From positions 2,852,001 to 2,916,000 of the forward strand of contig NZ_JBBPCL010000001.1 in assembly GCF_038039215.1 (NCBI RefSeq): a DNA stretch of 64,000 nucleotides. Direction: 5' to 3'. This DNA is from Pseudonocardia sp. T1-2H. Lineage in GTDB: Bacteria; Actinomycetota; Actinomycetes; Mycobacteriales; Pseudonocardiaceae. The position numbers and the translations under genes are program-made. Of this stretch, positions 11,328-48,591 are shown one piece after another (within the stretch, counting starts at the first letter, position 1; every line of letters begins with the position of its first letter). A model generated the notes under the pieces. It searched no databases and had not been told where the DNA came from. It saw nothing but the letters and a program-made list of their open reading frames with translations.

Positions 11328-11444
11328 TGCTGCGTGCTGGGTGCTGCTACGCGCTCACGAGATGCGACTCCGTGCCTGTTGAGAAGGACGACCGTTCCAG
11401 GATAAACGGGGCACAGACGCTCATCTCGGGATCATGTCTGACGT

Positions 11445-11738: not shown

Positions 11739-11848
11739 TCGGTCCCCGCGCCGTCGACGGGTCCACGGCCGATCGCCCGCTCCAGGTCACGATCGACCGC
11801 GCTCACGGCGCGCCGAATCTCCTCCTCCATCGTCGCCCCGGGCCGGGT

Positions 11849-12691
11849 TCACCGCCTGGCGAGGACCGCCGAGTCCAGTGCGGCCCGCATCGCCTCGACC
11901 GGTCCCGGCCGCCCGGTCATCAGCTCCACCTGCGCGACCGCCTGGTGCAGCAGCATGTCCAGCCCGCTGACGATCCGGCACCCGGCCGTCGCGGCGCCCG
12001 CGGCGAACGCGGTGGGCCAGGGCGCGTAGACGACGTCCAGCACGGTGGTCCGGGAGCGCCAGCGCGCGCCGCCGAGCTCGTCCGCCGCGCTCCCCGGCAG
12101 CGTGGAGATGACGACGTCCGCGCCGGTCAGGAAGCCCGCCGCACGGGCGGGGTCGGTCAGCACGGCCTCGACGACGGGGGAGACGTCGAGCCGCTCGGCC
12201 GCGTCCCGCAGCTCCCCGGCACGCGACGCGCTGCGCACCAGCACCGTCGGCGCGGTCGCCCCCAGGTCACGGAGGGCGGCGAGCGCGGCCTGCGCGGTCC
12301 CGCCCGCGCCCAGCACCACGGCGTTCTCGACCCTGTCCACACCGGCTGCGCGCAGCGACTCGACGATGCCGATGACGTCGGTGTTCTCCACGAGTCGGCC
12401 CTGCGGCGTGAAGATCATCGTGTTGGCGGCTCCCGTCGCCCCGGCCAGCGGGGAGACCCGGTCCGCGATCTCGATCGCCACCCGCTTGAGCGGCATCGTC
12501 AGTGACAGTCCCGCCCACTCGGTGCCCAGCGCGTCGACGAACCCGGGCAGGCCCGCCTCGTCCACCTCGTGCGCGTCGTAGGACCAGTCGCCGAGGCCGA
12601 GCGCGGCGTACGCGGCACCGTGCAGGACGGGGGAGAGCGAGTGCGTGATGGGGGAGCCGAGGACCGCGGCCCGGCGGGAGGTGCCGTTCAC
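11849..12691 (-). CDS. aroE: Shikimate 5-dehydrogenase
   Basis: About 280 residues. This cytoplasmic enzyme reduces 3-dehydroshikimate with NADPH in aromatic amino acid synthesis. Visible motifs are LGSPITHSLSPVLHGAAY (shikimate-binding Ser residues), SLTMPLK (the catalytic Lys), ENTDVIG, and the Rossmann VLGAGGTAQAALAAL. The GTG at 12691 starts just before the conserved strand; an in-frame TTG at 12718 is possible. It stands alone on this strand beside the disrupted peptidase gene. Confidence 0.9.
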   Translation of the reverse strand: MNGTSRRAAVLGSPITHSLSPVLHGAAYAALGLGDWSYDAHEVDEAGLPGFVDALGTEWAGLSLTMPLKRVAIEIADRVSPLAGATGAANTMIFTPQGRLVENTDVIGIVESLRAAGVDRVENAVVLGAGGTAQAALAALRDLGATAPTVLVRSASRAGELRDAAERLDVSPVVEAVLTDPARAAGFLTGADVVISTLPGSAADELGGARWRSRTTVLDVVYAPWPTAFAAGAATAGCRIVSGLDMLLHQAVAQVELMTGRPGPVEAMRAALDSAVLARR

Positions 12692-12808
12692 CCCCGCAGT
12701 ATGGCCGGGCGTACCCAATTCGGGGTAAAGCCGGTCGGTGGCGCTAATGGCGCAGCAGGACCTGCGACATACGGGTGTACGTCATCGGCATCGTCCAGGG
12801 AGAGCGTC

Positions 12809-13027
12809 ATGAACCGGCCCGCCAGCAGCACCGCCCCCACCGAGACCGGCGCTCCGTTGATCCCGGCGCCGCGCGGCCCGGTCGACCTCACCGTCGACGA
12901 GATGCTGGGCCTGCGCCCGGCGCCCGGCTCCTCGCGCGTGGACGTCCCCGCGGACGGCTTCCTGTTCGCCCCGCGGCTGCGCGTCCCCGCCGCCACGGGC
13001 GGCGTGGTGTTCCGCATCGGCTCCTGA
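12809..13027 (+). CDS. Small protein of unknown function
   Basis: 72 residues from ATG 12809, with GGGAGAG upstream. A Pro/Thr-rich N-terminus is followed by VDLTVDEMLGLRP and PADGFLFAPRLRVPAATGGVVFRIGS. It converges with the MSMEG_0570-type gene, whose stop lies just after. High third-position GC supports coding. I do not recognise the family. Confidence 0.5.
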   Translation: MNRPASSTAPTETGAPLIPAPRGPVDLTVDEMLGLRPAPGSSRVDVPADGFLFAPRLRVPAATGGVVFRIGS

Positions 13028-13366
13028 TCAGCGGCGGAACGCCGCCAGGGTGACGCTGTCGCCGGTCGCCAACCGGGCTGCGGCGCGTTCGATCCCCGCC
13101 ATCGTCATGACGGACTGGGCGCAGCCGACGCCGTACTTCGCGCGCACCCGCTGGTCCGCGATCCGCATGCACTCACGGCTGCGCTCCACGAAGTCCTCGA
13201 GCGGGTACGCCGAGCCCGCGTCGAAGTACTCCTCGACGATCAGCGACGGCGAGTAGAACGACTGGGTGGACCCGTCCGGCCAGCGGACGTCGAAGAGCAC
13301 CTCGGGCACCGCCCGACCGTAGATCGGCCCTGTTTCCGGGGCATTGCCTCCGAACCTCCGTCGCAT
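13028..13366 (-). CDS. MSMEG_0570-family nitrogen-starvation response protein
   Basis: About 112 residues. The core VLFDVRWPDGSTQSFYSPSL, then DFVERSRECMRIADQRVRAKYG and a C-terminal AGIERAAARL, matches the small MSMEG_0570 family found in nitrogen-starvation nit1-type clusters of actinobacteria and cyanobacteria. The usual cluster partners (radical SAM protein, nitrilase, flavoprotein) are absent. Start chosen at ATG 13366; a longer Pro/Gly-rich open frame upstream overlaps the divergent gene and is unlikely. Confidence 0.75.
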   Translation of the reverse strand: MRRRFGGNAPETGPIYGRAVPEVLFDVRWPDGSTQSFYSPSLIVEEYFDAGSAYPLEDFVERSRECMRIADQRVRAKYGVGCAQSVMTMAGIERAAARLATGDSVTLAAFRR

Positions 13367-13391
13367 GTCCACAGCTTGAAGGGCTCCCGCC

Positions 13392-14045
13392 ATGACCACG
13401 CACGACGCGACCATGCCGGTCCCGGACGTCGCCGCACCGCCACCGTCGTTCCCGGGCGAGGTGTTCCGCGGGCCCGCGTTCCAGGGGCCGCCCGCCGCTC
13501 CGTTCCAGGGGCCGCCCACCTCGTTCCCGTCCGACCCCTATGCCCCGCCCGCCGGACTGGGTGCGCCGTTCGGGCCGCCCCCGCGGTGGACTCCGGCTCC
13601 GCGCTCGCGGCTCGTGACCTTCCTCGCGGGGACGGCCGTCGGCGCCGCGGTGCTCGGCCTGGTGTGGGGCGGGACCGCCGCGCTCTCCGCCGCGTCGACG
13701 TTCGACGTCGGCGGCACCTTCCAGCTGACCCAGACCAGCTCCTACCTCAACTCCAGCTACGGCTCGTTCACCACCGGCTCGTCCTGCTCGGGCAGCGGCG
13801 GCTACTCGGACATCGACACGGGCAGTTCGGTGACGGTCTACGACGGCTCAGGCGCGGTCGTCGCCACCGGGATGCTCGGCTCCGGCCGGGCCACCAGCTC
13901 GTCGACCTGCGAGTTCGTCGTCACCGTGCCGGACGTCCCGGCCGGGTCGGACTTCTACCAGGTCGAGGTGTCGCACCGCGGGAAGGTGACCTTCGAGGGC
14001 CGGCGGCTGCAGACCGACGGGGTCTCGCTCACCCTGGGCAGCTGA
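13392..14045 (+). CDS. Membrane-anchored secreted protein with Pro-rich N-terminus
   Basis: 217 residues. A cytoplasmic Pro/Phe/Gly-rich head of about 70 residues (GPPAAPFQGPP repeats) precedes one membrane segment (LVTFLAGTAVGAAVLGLVWGG). An extracytoplasmic Ser/Gly/Thr-rich domain follows, with two Cys (SSCSGSGG and SSSTCEFVV) that could form a disulfide. The domain looks like a small beta-sandwich. ATG 13392 fits. Function unknown. Confidence 0.6.
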   Translation: MTTHDATMPVPDVAAPPPSFPGEVFRGPAFQGPPAAPFQGPPTSFPSDPYAPPAGLGAPFGPPPRWTPAPRSRLVTFLAGTAVGAAVLGLVWGGTAALSAASTFDVGGTFQLTQTSSYLNSSYGSFTTGSSCSGSGGYSDIDTGSSVTVYDGSGAVVATGMLGSGRATSSSTCEFVVTVPDVPAGSDFYQVEVSHRGKVTFEGRRLQTDGVSLTLGS

Positions 14046-42312: not shown

Positions 42313-43608
42313 TCAGCGGTCCTCGGCGGAGCGCTCGGGCTCCAGGGCCGGGGTGTCGATCCGCGGCCCGGCGACCGGGTGCCCGGCGATCCGGACGGCG
42401 TTGCGGCCCGCCTCCTTGGCCGCGTAGAGCGCGCGGTCCGCCAGGCTCAGGACCTGCTCGATCGTCGTCGACGCCTCGGGCGTCACGATCGCCCCGCCGG
42501 CGCTGATGCTGAGGTCGGCGATGGAGAGCGGGCCGTCGGGCGTCTCGATCGGGACATCGAGGTGCTCGACCCGGATCCGGATCCGCTCCGCGACCATCCG
42601 CAGGCCGCCGACGGGGTGGTCCTCGGGCAGGCCGGGCAGCAGGACGACGAACTCCTCGCCGCCGAACCGGCCGACCAGGTCGTTCCCGCGCACCTCGTCC
42701 CGCACGGCGTCCGCGACGGCGGCCAGGACGCGGTCCCCGGCGAGGTGGCCGTGGGTGTCGTTGACGTTCTTGAAGTGGTCCAGGTCCAGGACGAGCAGCG
42801 CGAACGGGGTGCTGCCGCGGCGCGCCCGGCGCAGCTCCTGGCCGGCGCGGACGTTCCAGGCCGCCGCGGTGAGCAGCCCGGTCTTGCCGTCCGTCGAGGC
42901 GGCCGCGGCCAGCTCGCGGACCAGGACGGCCCGCTGCAGCACGAGGATCGGCGGGAACGCGAGGAGGACGAACCACCACGAGAAGGTCAGCGTCAGGGCG
43001 AGCATCGCGCCCAGGCAGAGCGTCGCGACCTCGACCATGATGTCGTCGAGGTGGCCGAACAGGTCCGTCGGCCGGGCCTGCGGGTCGTTCGCGGCCACCG
43101 CGGCGGCGATCAGGGCGCTGTTGACCGTGGCGTAGGCCGCCGCGGCGAGCAGCAGCACGGCGAGCCCGGCCAGCCCGTGCAGCGACAGCCCGGGGGCCGC
43201 GGCGCGCAGCACGATCTCGTGCGCGGCCTGGACGGCGAGCAGGACCGTCGAGGTGGTGAAGACGTGCCGGTAGAGGGGGAAGCGCGCCGGCTTCCACACC
43301 CGGAACCAGAGATGCGTGTAGATGACGACCACGGCGGCCGTCGCCATGGCCGGGGGAAGCAGGACGGCGGCGGCGAAGGTCCAGATGGTGCTGAGGTCGG
43401 TGTAGGACTTCTCGCCCACCCGGCGGCGGGCGCGCTCCACACCCGTCGCGATCTCGGTGTGGGCGATGCCGGTGACCGCGAGCAGCAGACCCAGGAGGAC
43501 AGCGGACACCGAGGGGTCGGAGGCGATCGCCGTGGCGACCACCAGACCCGCGGCGCACGACTCGACAACCGCGAGGGCCGCGATCACTCGGGTGGACTGA
43601 GTCCATAC
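42313..43608 (-). CDS. Membrane diguanylate cyclase (GGDEF) with I-site
   Basis: About 431 residues from GTG 43608 (an in-frame ATG at 43677 is possible). Five or six N-terminal membrane segments form a MASE-like sensor, followed by a GGDEF domain: DLDHFKNVNDTHGHLAGDRVL, RGNDLVGRFGGEEFVVLLPG. The catalytic motif is GGEEF, and RGND (RxxD) five residues before it is the allosteric c-di-GMP inhibition site. Makes c-di-GMP from GTP. It is divergent from the micro-ORF array, 292 bp away. Confidence 0.9.
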   Translation of the reverse strand, partial: VWTQSTRVIAALAVVESCAAGLVVATAIASDPSVSAVLLGLLLAVTGIAHTEIATGVERARRRVGEKSYTDLSTIWTFAAAVLLPPAMATAAVVVIYTHLWFRVWKPARFPLYRHVFTTSTVLLAVQAAHEIVLRAAAPGLSLHGLAGLAVLLLAAAAYATVNSALIAAAVAANDPQARPTDLFGHLDDIMVEVATLCLGAMLALTLTFSWWFVLLAFPPILVLQRAVLVRELAAAASTDGKTGLLTAAAWNVRAGQELRRARRGSTPFALLVLDLDHFKNVNDTHGHLAGDRVLAAVADAVRDEVRGNDLVGRFGGEEFVVLLPGLPEDHPVGGLRMVAERIRIRVEHLDVPIETPDGPLSIADLSISAGGAIVTPEASTTIEQVLSLADRALYAAKEAGRNAVRIAGHPVAGPRIDTPALEPERSAEDR

Positions 43609-43899
43609 CGCCCACCGGGTGATGCCACACCTCCGTCGAGGTGACTGTCTCAAGGGAGCGACTCCTGTCCAGCACACTGACGTAGCAGGGACCCGAGAGT
43701 AGTCACATGATCACCGAAACCTGATACCCCGAAGAGGTAGAGGATCGGCGACCGCTGACTACGCAGGGTCACGATCCTGGGGAGTGATTCGTCGTGTCAT
43801 GGGCGGCCTGAAGCTCGCCGGCCACCGCGGCACGACTGCGTTCGGAGGTCATCGTGCCGTCTCGCGACCGCCTCGTCGAGCCGGGAAGGGGGATTCGTT
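43609..43899. other. Divergent upstream region of GGDEF gene and micro-ORF array
   Basis: No gene is called. It should hold promoters for both directions. A relic-like element GTGCCGTCTCGCGAC with its own GGAGG lies at 43854 and resembles a decayed array unit (encoding MPSRDRL). I see no confident sigma-factor hexamers. Confidence 0.4.
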
Positions 43900-43989
43900 G
43901 TGCCCGACCGTGCCTGGTGGTGGCCGTCCGTCGATACACGGAACGTTTTCGGGTCGAAGGAGGCCGTCATGCGCAACCGCGCCTGGTGA
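43900..43989 (+). CDS. Array unit 0: read-through variant, 29 codons
   Basis: GTG 43900 is preceded by GGGAAGGGGGA. It starts MPDRAW like the other units, but the TGA is TGG, so translation continues through WW, a linker and GSKEAV in frame into all of unit 1, ending at unit 1's TGA. It encodes a 29-residue peptide whose last six residues are MRNRAW. It may be a functional longer precursor or a decayed first copy. Confidence 0.5.
   Translation: MPDRAWWWPSVDTRNVFGSKEAVMRNRAW
43969..43989 (+). CDS. Array unit 1: micro-ORF MRNRAW
   Basis: ATG CGC AAC CGC GCC TGG then TGA. AAGGAGG at 43957-43963 with a 5-nt spacer is an excellent ribosome-binding site. Confidence 0.65.
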   Translation: MRNRAW

Positions 43990-44038
43990 GTGTGAGGGCG
44001 AGGGCCGTGTCGCAATCACCACCCGGAAGGAGTAGGCC

Positions 44039-44059
44039 GTGCAGAACAGAGCCTGGTGA
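44039..44059 (+). CDS. Array unit 2: micro-ORF MQNRAW
   Basis: GTG CAG AAC AGA GCC TGG then TGA; AAGGAG at 44027-44032. This is the only copy with a residue change (Arg2 to Gln), and the only AGA at Arg4. A decayed remnant TCGCGCCTGGTTGA lies just after it (about 44071-44084). Confidence 0.6.
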   Translation: MQNRAW

Positions 44060-44124
44060 CCCGAGTCACCTCGCGCCTGGTTGATCGTTGAAACACATGG
44101 AGTCGTCCGGAGGGAGGGCAGGAC

Positions 44125-44145
44125 ATGCGCAATCGCGCCTGGTGA
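44125..44145 (+). CDS. Array unit 3: micro-ORF MRNRAW
   Basis: ATG CGC AAT CGC GCC TGG then TGA; GGAGGGAGGG at 44109-44118 with a 6-nt spacer. Confidence 0.65.
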   Translation: MRNRAW

Positions 44146-44184
44146 GAGGACCGAGAACGCCATGACCAAGGGGAGGTGAGCGAC

Positions 44185-44205
44185 GTGCGCAATCGTGCCT
44201 GGTGA
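44185..44205 (+). CDS. Array unit 4: micro-ORF MRNRAW
   Basis: GTG CGC AAT CGT GCC TGG then TGA; GGGGAGGTGAG at 44170-44180, a near-perfect Shine-Dalgarno. Confidence 0.65.
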   Translation: MRNRAW

Positions 44206-44263
44206 CGCAGATCAGAAGATCGAGGTTCCGCAGGGGGCCGTTTCCGCCGGAGGAGGAGAGCAG

Positions 44264-44284
44264 ATGCGCAACCGCGCCTGGTGA
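44264..44284 (+). CDS. Array unit 5: micro-ORF MRNRAW
   Basis: ATG CGC AAC CGC GCC TGG then TGA; GGAGGAGGAG at 44249-44258. Confidence 0.65.
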   Translation: MRNRAW

Positions 44285-44333
44285 GAACCGCAGTGAACCG
44301 CCGTCGATCCGTACCACCGACGAGGAGCCCGTC

Positions 44334-44354
44334 GTGCGCAATCGCGCCTGGTGA
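44334..44354 (+). CDS. Array unit 6: micro-ORF MRNRAW
   Basis: GTG CGC AAT CGC GCC TGG then TGA; GAGGAG at 44322-44327 with a 6-nt spacer. The linker before it shares CCGTCGA with those of units 1 and 7. Confidence 0.65.
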   Translation: MRNRAW

Positions 44355-44412
44355 CACCGCAGAACCCGGCTTCGACCGGGAAAGGTCCGTCGACCGAGAA
44401 AGGAAGGCCTTC

Positions 44413-44433
44413 GTGCGAAACCGTGCCTGGTGA
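44413..44433 (+). CDS. Array unit 7: micro-ORF MRNRAW
   Basis: GTG CGA AAC CGT GCC TGG then TGA; GAAAGGAAGG at 44398-44407. It is the last unit; the MFS gene starts 180 nt later on the same strand. Confidence 0.65.
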   Translation: MRNRAW

Positions 44434-44613: not shown

Positions 44614-45882
44614 GTGCGACACGGACGTGGCCACACGGCGAGCGTCTTCCGCAACCCCGAGTTCCGCGCCCTCTGGGCCGCCGAGCTCGTGTCGGTGGCC
44701 GGGGACCAGCTCGCCCGGGTCGCCTTCTCCGTGCTGGTCTACGGACGGACCGGCTCCGCGGCGTGGGTCGCGGCCGTCTATGCGCTGACCTTCCTGCCCG
44801 CCCTGCTCGGCGGCGTGCTCCTCGGCTGGGTCGCGGACCGCCTCCCGCGCCGGCGGGTCATGGTCGTCGCCGACGCGGCGCGCGCGCTGCTCGTCCTCCC
44901 CCTGGCCTGGCCCGGGCTCCCGTTCGCCCTGCTCTGCCCGCTGCTGGTGCTCGTCGTGGTGCTGGCCTCCCCGCACAGCGCGGCCCAGGGCGCCCTCCTC
45001 CCGGACGTGCTGTCCCACGGCGACGAGCTCGAACGGGGCTTCGCAGTCCGGCAGATCACCAACCAGACCGCGCAGATCGCCGGGTTCGCGGTCGGCGGCG
45101 TCCTCGTCACCCTGATCGGCCCCGAGATCGCGATCCTGATCAACGCCGGCACGTTCCTGCTCTCGGCCCTGGTCGTGCGGCTGGGTGTACGCCGCCGCCC
45201 CGCCCCGCCCCGCGGCCCCGGCCTCGACGCCGCCTCCGGGTTCCGGATTTTCACCACGGACATCCGCGAGGGCGCCGCAGCCGTGTTCACCCATCCCGGC
45301 CTGCGGACGCTGGCGGCCGCCGTGTGGCTCGTCGGCTGTTACGTCGCGCCGGAGGCGCTGGCCGTGCCCTTCGTCGACGACCTCGGCGCCGACCCCGCCG
45401 CCGTGGGGCTCCTGATGGCGGCGGACCCGGCCGGCAGCGTGATCGGCGCCGTGATCGTGAGCCGCTGGGTGCCCGACGCCTGGCGGGAGCGGGTGATCAT
45501 CCCCGCGGCCGCGCTCGCGGGGCTGCCGCTCGTGGCCTCGCTGTTCGCGCCGAACGTCGCGGTCGTCGTCGTCCTGTGGGGCCTTACCGGGGCGCTGTGC
45601 ACGATCAGCCTCGTCCCGGCGCAGGCAGTCTTCGTCCGGACGACGCCCGGTGCGGTGCGCGGGCGCGCGACGGGGCTGGCCGCGTCCGGCCTGATCGCCG
45701 CGCAGGGCCTCGCCATGCTGGTCTGCGGGGGAGTGGCCCAGATCTGGTCCGCGGGTGTCGCGGTCGCGGTGTGCGGCGCGGGCGGGCTCGCCGCGGCGCT
45801 GGCCCTGGGGGCGACGCGCGGCGGGCGTGAGGTCTCCGCGGCGCACCGGGTCGACGGCGACGCGAGCTGCGCGACGCCCTGA
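44614..45882 (+). CDS. MFS transporter downstream of the array
   Basis: 422 residues with about 12 membrane segments. Family features: NPEFRALWAAELVSVAGDQLARVAFSVLVYGRTGSA at the N-terminus and the loop GWVADRLPRRRVMVVAD (motif A) between helices 2 and 3. This is the EntS/drug-exporter type of MFS that often exports small molecules or peptides. GTG 44614 with GGGGGGA upstream. It lies on the same strand as the array, 180 nt downstream, and could be its exporter; that is inference. Confidence 0.85.
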   Translation: MRHGRGHTASVFRNPEFRALWAAELVSVAGDQLARVAFSVLVYGRTGSAAWVAAVYALTFLPALLGGVLLGWVADRLPRRRVMVVADAARALLVLPLAWPGLPFALLCPLLVLVVVLASPHSAAQGALLPDVLSHGDELERGFAVRQITNQTAQIAGFAVGGVLVTLIGPEIAILINAGTFLLSALVVRLGVRRRPAPPRGPGLDAASGFRIFTTDIREGAAAVFTHPGLRTLAAAVWLVGCYVAPEALAVPFVDDLGADPAAVGLLMAADPAGSVIGAVIVSRWVPDAWRERVIIPAAALAGLPLVASLFAPNVAVVVVLWGLTGALCTISLVPAQAVFVRTTPGAVRGRATGLAASGLIAAQGLAMLVCGGVAQIWSAGVAVAVCGAGGLAAALALGATRGGREVSAAHRVDGDASCATP

Positions 45883-46354
45883 CGCCCGCGGAGGAGACCC
45901 GCCCGGCGGTGCAGGGACGGTGCGAGGATGCGGTCCGGACGGACCGACGGTCACCAGGAGCGGTTGGCCGGTCCCGTGCGGTTTGCCCGCCGCGGTGTGG
46001 CGAGCGGCGTGCGGCTGGACGTTCCAGTCTCCGACACCTGCGGGGCCACCCACGGGTGGACTTCGGGCCTTCGGTCTCGCACTCCCTGGCCGGCGCTCCG
46101 GCTCTGGGACCGGTTCCGCGCGGTGCGTCACTGAGCCGGACGGACGAACGCGACACGGCGTCTGCGCGGAGGCCCAGGACGATCACGCGCGGCGTCGCCC
46201 CGAGACGCGCGAACCTGAGAACGGGGAGGCACGGTGCGCCTCCGCACGGCCGCGGAGACGATCTTCTTCTTGGCCCAGCGGGATGCGCCGAAAAGGTCGC
46301 CGGGCGGTACACCTGCGCCGTGTGCAAGGGTATGTCGTGGCCGGTCTCGGGGAC
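45883..46354. other. 470-bp region without a convincing gene
   Basis: GC-rich, with overlapping short frames on both strands but none with a family match. A small hairpin CGGTCC/GGACCG sits near 45930. Probably the upstream regulatory region of the Roadblock genes. Confidence 0.4.
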
Positions 46355-47380
46355 GTGGTGACGAGACTTCTCGACATATCGGGGACGTCGTACTCCTGCA
46401 TTGTCGACGGCGCATCGGCCCGCATTCTGGCGGAATCCGGAGAACGGTCGGACGACACCGTCGATCCGCTCGTTCTCGTGCCGTTGGCCCGCGTGCACGG
46501 TTCGGACGGCGCGGCGGTCGAGGACGTCATGATCACGTCCCAGCGGTGGCTGCACGTGCTGCGCCCGGCCGTGGACCCGGACGGCGCCGAGCTGCTCCTC
46601 TACATCCTGCTGCGCCGGGGCCCGGCGAACCTGGCGCTCGCACGCCGCGAGCTCGGCGCCGCCAGGGCGGCGCTCGCGAGCGGGCGGCCCTTCTCCCCGA
46701 GGGTCGGACCCGGGGTGACCGGCCGCACCGACGGCTCCACGGGTGCGCCCCCGCAGGGCAGGGACGGGCCCCGCGTCGGGACCGGCGGCAGCGGGACCCC
46801 GGCGCCGGTGCGGGGGACGCCGACGCCCACCGGCTCGCTCGCCGGGTCCCTGTACCGCGTCGCGGGGCCGCGGCCGAACGGCGGCGCAAGCTCGGTCGAC
46901 CCGGTGAATACCCAGGTCAGCCGGGATGTCGACGCCAGGGTGCCGGCCCCGCGTCGCGGCGGCGCCCCGCTGGTCCGGCCCGCCGAGAGGCCCCCGCCCG
47001 CGCCCACCCGGGCGGCGGGCGCCGAGGTCGGGGGGCGCGCCGTGCCGTCGGGGGCCCGTGCCGCCGGTCCCGCACGCCCCACGGCTCCCGCGTCGGACCG
47101 CGCGCGGGCGCCGGCGCAGCGGCGCGACGGCCCGGCGAGGAGTCGGCCCGCCGGGGCCGTCGAGCGAGGACCGATCGCCGCGCTGCCCCGGAGGCCGGGG
47201 ACGACGGTCCTGCCCCGCCTCGAAGAGCAGGACGGCTCGGGCGCGCCGGTCCCCGAACGGCTCGGCCACGAGCCCGTCCCGGCCCCCCGCGGCGTCCCCG
47301 CACCGGAGGCTACGCAGTCCTGGGCGACCGACGCGCCGGCGCTGCGACGCCTGCTCGTCGCCTTACGCAGACTGGTGTGA
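46355..47380 (+). CDS. Roadblock/LC7-like protein with long Pro/Arg-rich tail
   Basis: About 341 residues. The first 110 residues match the neighbour at 47526: SYSCIVDGASARILAES, a helix, DVMITSQRWLHVLRP, LLLYILLRRGPANLALARRELGAA. This is the Roadblock/MglB-type fold, often a regulator of small GTPases. The remainder is low-complexity Pro, Arg, Gly and Ala, with a final helix LRRLLVALRRLV. The start is uncertain among GTG 46322, 46337, 46355 and 46358; the homology favours 46355 or 46358. Confidence 0.65.
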   Translation: MVTRLLDISGTSYSCIVDGASARILAESGERSDDTVDPLVLVPLARVHGSDGAAVEDVMITSQRWLHVLRPAVDPDGAELLLYILLRRGPANLALARRELGAARAALASGRPFSPRVGPGVTGRTDGSTGAPPQGRDGPRVGTGGSGTPAPVRGTPTPTGSLAGSLYRVAGPRPNGGASSVDPVNTQVSRDVDARVPAPRRGGAPLVRPAERPPPAPTRAAGAEVGGRAVPSGARAAGPARPTAPASDRARAPAQRRDGPARSRPAGAVERGPIAALPRRPGTTVLPRLEEQDGSGAPVPERLGHEPVPAPRGVPAPEATQSWATDAPALRRLLVALRRLV

Positions 47381-47525
47381 AGAAACTCCGGCGATAACGC
47401 TCACCTTCCACTACTCGACCCCCGGCTTGATTCGGCAGCGAAGTCAGCTAATGTTCGGGTTCCCCGAACCGCCCCCCGTGAATGTGAAGATCGCGCCTCC
47501 TTCGGGGCCGCGATCGGAGGTAGAC

Positions 47526-47972
47526 ATGAGCAATATCGACCATTCCCTCGACATGGCCGCCAACATCAAGGGCGCGTTCGCCGTCGCCCTGGTGGACTAC
47601 GACAGCGGCATGACGCTGGGCTCGCGCGGTGGCAGCGCAGAGTTCGACCTGGACGTCGCGGCGCCCGGCAACAGCGACGTCATCCGCACCAAGATCGAGG
47701 TCGTCGAGAAGCTCGGCCTGCGGGAGTCCGTCGAGGACATCCTGATCACCCTGGACACCCAGTACCACCTGCTGCGCCTCATCCGCGGCCTGCCCGACGA
47801 GAAGCTGTTCTTCTACGTGGCGCTCAACCGGGCGCAGGCCAACCTGGCCATGGCGCGACGGGACCTGAAGGTCATCGAGCAGGAGTTCTACATGTCCCAC
47901 CCGGCGTCGAACCAGCCCCGGCAGGGCGGGCAGAACGCCGACCAGTACTTCCAGCCCACCGCCCAGCGCTGA
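47526..47972 (+). CDS. Roadblock/LC7-like protein
   Basis: 148 residues, ATG 47526 with GGAGGTAGAC. FAVALVDYDSGMTLGS opens the fold; VEDILITLDTQYHLLRLI and LFFYVALNRAQANLAMARRDLKVIEQE close it. A short Gln-rich tail follows. This is the cleanest member of the three paralogs and resembles the ungrouped actinobacterial Roadblock proteins outside the conservons. Confidence 0.75.
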   Translation: MSNIDHSLDMAANIKGAFAVALVDYDSGMTLGSRGGSAEFDLDVAAPGNSDVIRTKIEVVEKLGLRESVEDILITLDTQYHLLRLIRGLPDEKLFFYVALNRAQANLAMARRDLKVIEQEFYMSHPASNQPRQGGQNADQYFQPTAQR

Positions 47973-48000
47973 CCCGGCGCGCGTCAGGCATCCCCGGAGC

Positions 48001-48591
48001 GTGAACCCGCTCGTGCCGCCGTCACCGAACGGCGAGTCCGTCCCCGGCAGTCCCGGTGTGCTCCGTGGAGCAGGGCGGGAACTCGTCCGCCTTCCCGCGG
48101 TGCTCGCCTGCGCGTTGGTGGACGCGGGGAGCGGGATGGTGCTCGACGCGCATGTGACGGGCCGGACACCGGGCGGCGTCGACGGCCTGGCCGACGTCGC
48201 CGCGGCGCAGCTCGAGCTCGTCCGTACCGCCGAGGACCTGCGGGCGGGGGCTCCCTGGGCCGGGCACCCGGCGGAGATCGTGGTTGCCCACGGCCCGGGG
48301 CTGTTCCATCTGGTCCGGCCCGTCGCGGACCCCTACGGTGACGGGCTGGTCCTCGCCGTCCTGGTCGCCGCGCCGGAACGGAACCTGCGCCGGGTCCGGC
48401 GGAAGCTCGACAAGATCGAGCCCGCGTCCCTGGTACCGGGCAGGCCGGTCGCCGCGCCCCGGGAGACTCCGCCCGCTCCGGCTCCCCCCGGGAATCCGTG
48501 GCGACGGCGGCCCGCAGGCCGGTGGTCCGCGGCGCGGGACCCTTCGGCGGGGAAGCTTCGGTCGTTCGGATCGCGGGGCCGGGCCCCGTAG
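48001..48591 (+). CDS. Third Roadblock/LC7-like protein, possibly frame-damaged
   Basis: 196 residues from GTG 48001. CALVDAGSGMVLDAHV, AAQLELVRTAEDLR, EIVVAHGPGLFHLVRPV and LVLAVLVAAPERNLRRVRRKLDKIE align with the two preceding paralogs. After residue 150 the sequence is Pro/Arg-rich. In a different frame downstream, IDPRTAAGLAGAARGHFGWFNDD (to 49033) looks like a natural continuation, so one or more indels may have shortened this ORF. Confidence 0.65.
   Translation: MNPLVPPSPNGESVPGSPGVLRGAGRELVRLPAVLACALVDAGSGMVLDAHVTGRTPGGVDGLADVAAAQLELVRTAEDLRAGAPWAGHPAEIVVAHGPGLFHLVRPVADPYGDGLVLAVLVAAPERNLRRVRRKLDKIEPASLVPGRPVAAPRETPPAPAPPGNPWRRRPAGRWSAARDPSAGKLRSFGSRGRAP

Follow-up and report, generated by a model that had tools for sequence, protein, structure and literature searches.

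Seven tandem micro-genes in Pseudonocardia sp. T1-2H, each encoding the hexapeptide MRNRAW or its variant MQNRAW, probably specify a leaderless peptide pheromone that would be exported by a transporter of the major facilitator superfamily (MFS) and would have a membrane diguanylate cyclase as its sensor, as judged from sequence comparisons. The array lies in a 64,000-nt stretch of contig NZ_JBBPCL010000001.1 (positions 2,852,001 to 2,916,000), which as a whole is called the window here. A gene for a membrane protein with a GGDEF domain lies to the left of the array and is divergent to it, and an MFS gene lies to the right on the array's own strand. The features are listed by their positions in the window, the micro-genes being numbered as micro-ORFs (ORF, open reading frame).

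42313..43677, minus strand: membrane protein with C-terminal GGDEF domain (GGEEF, I-site RGND), assigned from Pfam, a structure model and array-linked homologues
43759..43771, plus strand: BldD-like box CTACGCAGGGTCA, one mismatch to the published consensus, between the divergent genes
43900..43920, plus strand: decayed first (eighth) copy, MPDRAWW..., stop lost, runs on into copy 1
43969..43989, plus strand: micro-ORF 1, MRNRAW
44039..44059, plus strand: micro-ORF 2, MQNRAW, GTG start
44125..44145, plus strand: micro-ORF 3, MRNRAW
44185..44205, plus strand: micro-ORF 4, MRNRAW, GTG start
44264..44284, plus strand: micro-ORF 5, MRNRAW
44334..44354, plus strand: micro-ORF 6, MRNRAW, GTG start
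44413..44433, plus strand: micro-ORF 7, MRNRAW, GTG start
44614..45882, plus strand: MFS transporter, proposed peptide exporter (Pfam MFS_1 2.6e-27, MFS_3 1.3e-15)

The seven ORFs of 21 nt between 43969 and 44433 encode MRNRAW six times and MQNRAW once. The start codon is ATG in three and GTG in four, the stop is TGA throughout, and each is immediately preceded by a purine-rich Shine-Dalgarno sequence. A preliminary description of this DNA had reported seven such ORFs, each with its own ribosome-binding site, start and stop, and the coordinates, motif statistics and a motif-blind detector bear this out; absent from it were the decayed eighth copy at 43900 and, as partners, the divergent GGDEF gene and the MFS gene. 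The decayed copy reads GTG CCC GAC CGT GCC TGG TGG and, lacking a stop, forms a 29-aa ORF through copy 1; it is intact in the close relatives L040 and L041. Single decayed copies occur, this one and another in L040. With up to three mismatches allowed, the motif matched nine times in the window (0.07 expected; nine reached in 0 of 100 shuffles), at the seven micro-ORFs, the decayed copy and an unrelated site at 11362. The blind detector, which looks for recurring ORFs of 4-15 residues that have a ribosome site, returned only the seven copies from both strands of the window, and 364 hits, 13 of them off type, from 869 kb of relatives' DNA. In the organism's own 7.0-Mb genome the exact pattern had seven forward matches, all in this array, with none on the reverse strand and none for the control. 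A promoter and terminator scan found neither.

The case for coding rests on 63 Pseudonocardia arrays comprising 400 copies. Starts were GTG in 204, ATG in 194 and TTG in 2 copies, and stops were TGA in 397; a Shine-Dalgarno sequence was present in 399, a figure partly built in, as the detector requires a ribosome-site-like word. In copy pairs with diverged linkers, 65% of the linker bases differed, and 7.5, 4.8 and 7.8% of the bases at codon positions 1, 2 and 3. Pairwise, 773 codon differences were synonymous and 267 non-synonymous, and the distinct variant codons per array column were 63 synonymous and 15 not, where about 16% synonymous would be expected at random. The near-equal variability of positions 1 and 3 complicates a simple coding story and is explained by CGN/AGR switches and R-to-S changes at residue 2. 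Copy spacings (n = 314, median 63.5 nt) fell into all three phases (95/102/117), and the copies are therefore separate ORFs, not parts of one repetitive protein. Mostly synonymous variation beside diverged linkers supports the earlier proposal of selection on a multi-copy, presumably translated peptide. An RNA motif with frame-breaking changes in relatives, named in advance as a counter-indication, was looked for, and the frame proved to be kept while the peptide changes by species.

Among 403 copies, with at most two differences per copy allowed, 28 substitutions were found in 27 variant copies, 22 of them at residue 2, and this residue is missing altogether from the peptide MSKDL described below. 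Both observations make the constrained part look like a core of about four residues, and M1 and residue 2 are perhaps removed from the peptide.

Within the genus, a strict pattern flagged 9 of 62 genomes, the organism's own included, with 6-16 copies per array; this is an undercount, since other species use other peptides and the pattern was too narrow. An MRNxxW scan of a collection of 84,980 species gave 33 stretches (31 in Pseudonocardia, one in a Pseudonocardiales metagenome-assembled genome and a lone Bacteroidales case taken as chance), and an MRNxxW-type search was positive in 15 of 297 genomes, every one of the own genus; this genus-only outcome follows from requiring that spelling. 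An orthologue of the MFS protein (E 1e-60 or better) was present in 50 of the 62 genomes. Of these loci 49 were examined, G019 being left out at a contig edge, and 48 carried an array; at the exception, L086, the MFS gene lies near a contig end. The arrays contain 2-22 copies, and their peptides are nearly uniform within one array and differ between species: MRNRAW, MRNRSW, MRNRTWI, MRNKSW, MRNKNW, MRNHNW, MRNWNW, MRNWGW and MRNWGF, as well as MRGKNW, MRGKEWH, MSKDWN, MGKDWN, MAKNWGW and others. P. dioxanivorans CB1190 (L148) has 21 copies spelling MRNKSW or MSNKSW, and P. autotrophica (L155) has six of MRNRAW. In the 16-copy MRNHSWT array of L112 (G060), six copies have an extra in-frame start one codon upstream (MMRNHSWT).

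The array stood back to back with a GGDEF gene in 51 of the 53 arrays at the Pseudonocardia MFS loci and in 32 of the 33 arrays at loci located purely by the DNA pattern, two sets that overlap in many species; the gap measured 70-619 nt. The exceptions were L105 and L168, both at a contig end in a single species, and L075, with a pair of transposase genes inserted between the array and its cyclase (11818-13923). In L176 (5879-8963) an ISL3 transposase gene separates the array from the cyclase sensor half, which itself ends at another transposase; this locus is a larger stretch of L114, first counted as lacking a partner, and its sensor half shares 50% identity with that of L173. In the window's clade the array lies ahead of the MFS gene on a common strand, and in other Pseudonocardia it is mostly opposed to it. 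Genomes with several cyclases carry several arrays with different peptides (L077, L094, L099, L102), and a tree of 103 cyclases grouped the peptide types by cyclase clade, not by genome. The array-cyclase module is also found on the linear plasmid NZ_CP080522.1 of Pseudonocardia sp. DSM 110487 (L303), with no MFS gene listed within the 15 kb shown; the array sits there in a gap between annotated genes, and the gene table may be incomplete.

The protein encoded next to the array in the window belongs to the diguanylate cyclase class by its GGDEF domain (Pfam 1.6e-37, residues 260-426) with an intact GG(D/E)EF motif, and its structure model (pLDDT 89.9) consists of helices followed by a GGDEF fold. 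Among the six GGDEF domains of the genome, it is the only one adjoining an MRNRAW array. The GG(D/E)EF motif was intact in 99 of 99 array-linked proteins and the RxxD I-site in 96, and from this conservation cyclase activity is predicted.

The cyclase family (E 1e-60) extends to 146 of 249 genomes and 26 of 46 genera of the organism's own family. Outside the genus, divergent arrays were found at 1 of the 14 loci first examined and then at 9 of 20, the latter partly picked for closeness to the first positive; their spellings were MRSRDN, M(S/A/T)NRDN, MRTREH and M(x)SKDL. At the order level, 15 of 26 new loci had arrays, 12 of them in another family, f2 (MNSNSW, MNNVTWR, MNSWHI, MTVVNWS, MSNWGWGK), and the organism's own family added the spelling MREKIW; one of the 15 repeats an earlier locus and three have just two copies, one residue apart. 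At the class level arrays were present at 16 of 29 loci, all in a single family, f34 (16 of its 18 loci; MRDNTWT, MRDTTWS, MRGNSWD, MRANSWD, MRDNNWN), and at none of 11 loci in families f31 and f21. The tandem MRDNTWT-type pattern occurred in 6 of 22 genomes of f34. Lineage-specific versions of this kind would be expected of a private signal. In loci L331 and L363 (G711) the repeated unit is a 15-residue ORF with two cores, MRDTNWVLRDTNWSW, present in four copies.

At 20 larger non-Pseudonocardia loci, a GGDEF gene was present in all 20, an MFS gene in 18 and the next most widespread neighbour family in 6, as counted from crude calls of genes of at least 80 residues, not all families of which were identified. 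The array was divergent to the cyclase in 21 of 21 units, one locus having two, and 26-608 nt separated the first copy from the point where the cyclase match starts; most of these arrays oppose the MFS gene and head away from the GGDEF gene.

Further evidence for a link between peptide and cyclase was obtained from 99 array-cyclase pairs with 59 spellings (two candidates were dropped: short protein; no array call). Once catalytic distance was controlled for, peptide distance correlated with sensor distance (0.40, p 0.0005); with sensor distance controlled for, it did not correlate with catalytic distance (-0.01, p 0.56). In a three-way test with one pair per locus where the MFS protein was available (66 of 71), the value was 0.38 for the sensor given the other two, -0.08 for the catalytic domain and 0.07 (p 0.17) for the MFS protein. 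With columns matched at 39% mean identity, the sensor gave 0.39, and 0.58 within Pseudonocardia (45 loci), and the others were near zero or negative. By these distances, peptide divergence is tracking the sensor half, not the catalytic half or the MFS protein, even at matched variability. Residues H73, E75, E81, R84, W99 and R126 of the sensor are near-invariant, and one sensor gave a weak Pfam MASE9 match (20.4 bits, cut-off 24.3).

In the circuit that we propose, the tandem micro-genes would supply in bulk one short, likely unmodified peptide (core NRAW in the window), the copies boosting the yield of a product whose shortness leaves no room for leader-guided processing. The adjacent MFS transporter would export the peptide, the divergently encoded membrane cyclase would bind it via its sensor half, and the peptide level would change cyclase output and thereby cyclic di-GMP (c-di-GMP). 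Feedback on the circuit could run through the BldD-like box. With at most one mismatch, such a site was present in 12 of 52 divergent intergenic regions (shuffle mean 1.75), 6 of the 12 belonging to the MRNRAW clade alone, and with two mismatches in 30 (17.6 by shuffle). The scan query was a form stricter than the published box TNAC(N)5GTNA given in the available text of PMC4151990.

Several points weigh against this circuit. The support is drawn from sequence, and expression, the peptide and its binding are putative. MRNKSW, MRNKNW and MRNHNW are each found in two separate cyclase clades. Many cyclase paralogues have no array: among 58 further Pseudonocardia cyclase genes at 51 loci, 16 had an array, 7 a single matching micro-ORF (MPKQW being doubtful) and 35 none, to which the 11 array-free loci of f31 and f21 are added; a paralogue group with a STEASLGVER-type motif (L233-L239 and others) likewise had no array in the loci examined. 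An MFS gene is missing beside L369, L371, L144, L157, L163, L166, L172, L173 and the plasmid locus L303. The co-divergence permutations take no account of phylogeny, and of the two halves of the gene it is the sensor half that adjoins the array, so that linkage could add to the correlation; the MFS gene, often as near on the array's other side, showed no such signal. The modelled sensor resembles the S-components of energy-coupling factor (ECF) transporters, vitamin receptors, by a weak Foldseek match (E 0.77 or worse), and helical bundles often score so high; no solved relative reached a significant E-value among the matches listed.

The main rival is an intracellular ligand: the peptides would stay in the cell, bind the cyclase from inside and report the state of translation or growth, with a separate role for the MFS protein. 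A signal sequence is absent from the micro-peptides, some arrays have no MFS gene nearby, and the six near-invariant sensor residues may face the cytosol if our guess of the topology holds. We nevertheless regard this as unlikely, as an MFS gene lies near the array at 18 of 20 non-genus loci in two or more orientations, and the species-specific wording fits communication.

Somewhat less likely still is a peptide natural product, in which the micro-genes would encode precursors of a ribosomally synthesized and post-translationally modified peptide (RiPP) or of a microcin-C-like compound, exported by the MFS protein, with the cyclase as a linked regulator or self-sensor. Cases of short precursors and of export by MFS proteins are familiar from RiPPs and from microcin C, the latter with the heptapeptide gene mccA and the MFS exporter MccC. 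Like microcin C, the present arrays combine a peptide gene of some seven codons that begins M-R with a gene for an MFS exporter (here a proposed one), but they differ in their tandem copies, their partner cyclase and the lack of a conserved modifying enzyme, although no MccB profile was run. Biarylitide RiPPs have 18-bp precursor genes, a cytochrome P450 and aromatic core motifs such as YWH, and their likewise minimal genes reach six copies in Lysinibacillus, according to the available text of PMC13417212. In contrast, most array cores lack tyrosine, the peptides have neither the aromatic motif (YxH, YxW or YxY type) nor a shared cross-linkable pair, and a Pfam scan of eight proteins near the window's array revealed no P450 and no radical S-adenosylmethionine enzyme, only a clade-limited luciferase-like monooxygenase. 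Across the 20 non-Pseudonocardia loci no third gene is conserved, and no conserved modifying enzyme was found in the crude gene calls, in line with the preliminary description, which had seen none nearby; this speaks against a RiPP.

A cis element (a leader or attenuator of the MFS gene, a switch based on ribosome stalling, or a motif that acts as RNA or DNA without free peptide) is suggested by the array preceding the MFS gene in the window's clade and by the likeness of RxR to macrolide-arrest motifs, but is very improbable, as the array is convergent to the MFS gene in most species and divergent to the GGDEF gene in nearly all, RxR is absent from RNHNW, RNWNW, SKDL and others, most variant codons leave the residue unchanged, spacing is unphased and an Rfam search gave no match up to E 1.

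Two narrower candidates were also rejected. Tryptophan sensing had been considered for a class-I W/Y tRNA synthetase gene (read as trpS) near the arrays of five relatives (L035-L038, L042), which is clade-specific, and the NCBIfam model for Ryptide export MFS matched with 16.2 bits (cut-off 575). Downstream of the MFS gene, up to a threonyl-tRNA-synthetase-like gene, two to three small roadblock-like proteins are encoded in a row (46310-48591); they were recognised by eye and had no Pfam match at 1e-3.

Among known signalling systems, the exported-pheromone circuit invites comparison with Rgg/SHP and other RRNPP circuits of Firmicutes, in which a very short signal-peptide gene is divergent from the receptor gene and the peptides are lineage-specific, as here. 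Unlike RRNPP receptors, which are cytoplasmic and DNA-binding, the partner here is a membrane diguanylate cyclase, and the peptides, of 5-8 residues, are leaderless and encoded in tandem arrays of up to 22 genes. The combination of a membrane region and a GGDEF domain recalls the membrane sensor cyclases of Streptomyces and their BldD/c-di-GMP control, as far as these are covered by the available text of PMC4151990 and PMC7026642; the difference is the proposed peptide ligand, for which the papers listed in a literature search gave no precedent in such a cyclase. Among the papers listed in our searches we found no description of an array-cyclase circuit, consistent with the earlier statement that no such family was known to the author, and none that links an S-component with a cyclase.

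To our knowledge, few peptide signals have been defined in actinomycetes, and we know of no ligand for most diguanylate cyclases. If the proposed circuit is true, its cyclase would be a receptor that links a pheromone directly to c-di-GMP, and 59 peptide spellings are here already matched with their receptors. The arrays also point to a class of genes, of 5-9 codons, that is skipped by annotation. We give about even chances to the broader picture that actinomycete lineages each spell a word of about four residues, export it by an MFS transporter and read it with a membrane cyclase whose vitamin-receptor-like sensor changes along with the word, a pheromone thus being converted in a single step into c-di-GMP and perhaps into BldD-controlled development. 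Because BldD together with c-di-GMP switches off sporulation genes in Streptomyces, as stated in the available text of PMC4151990, the circuit may couple development and the making of antibiotics to cell density.
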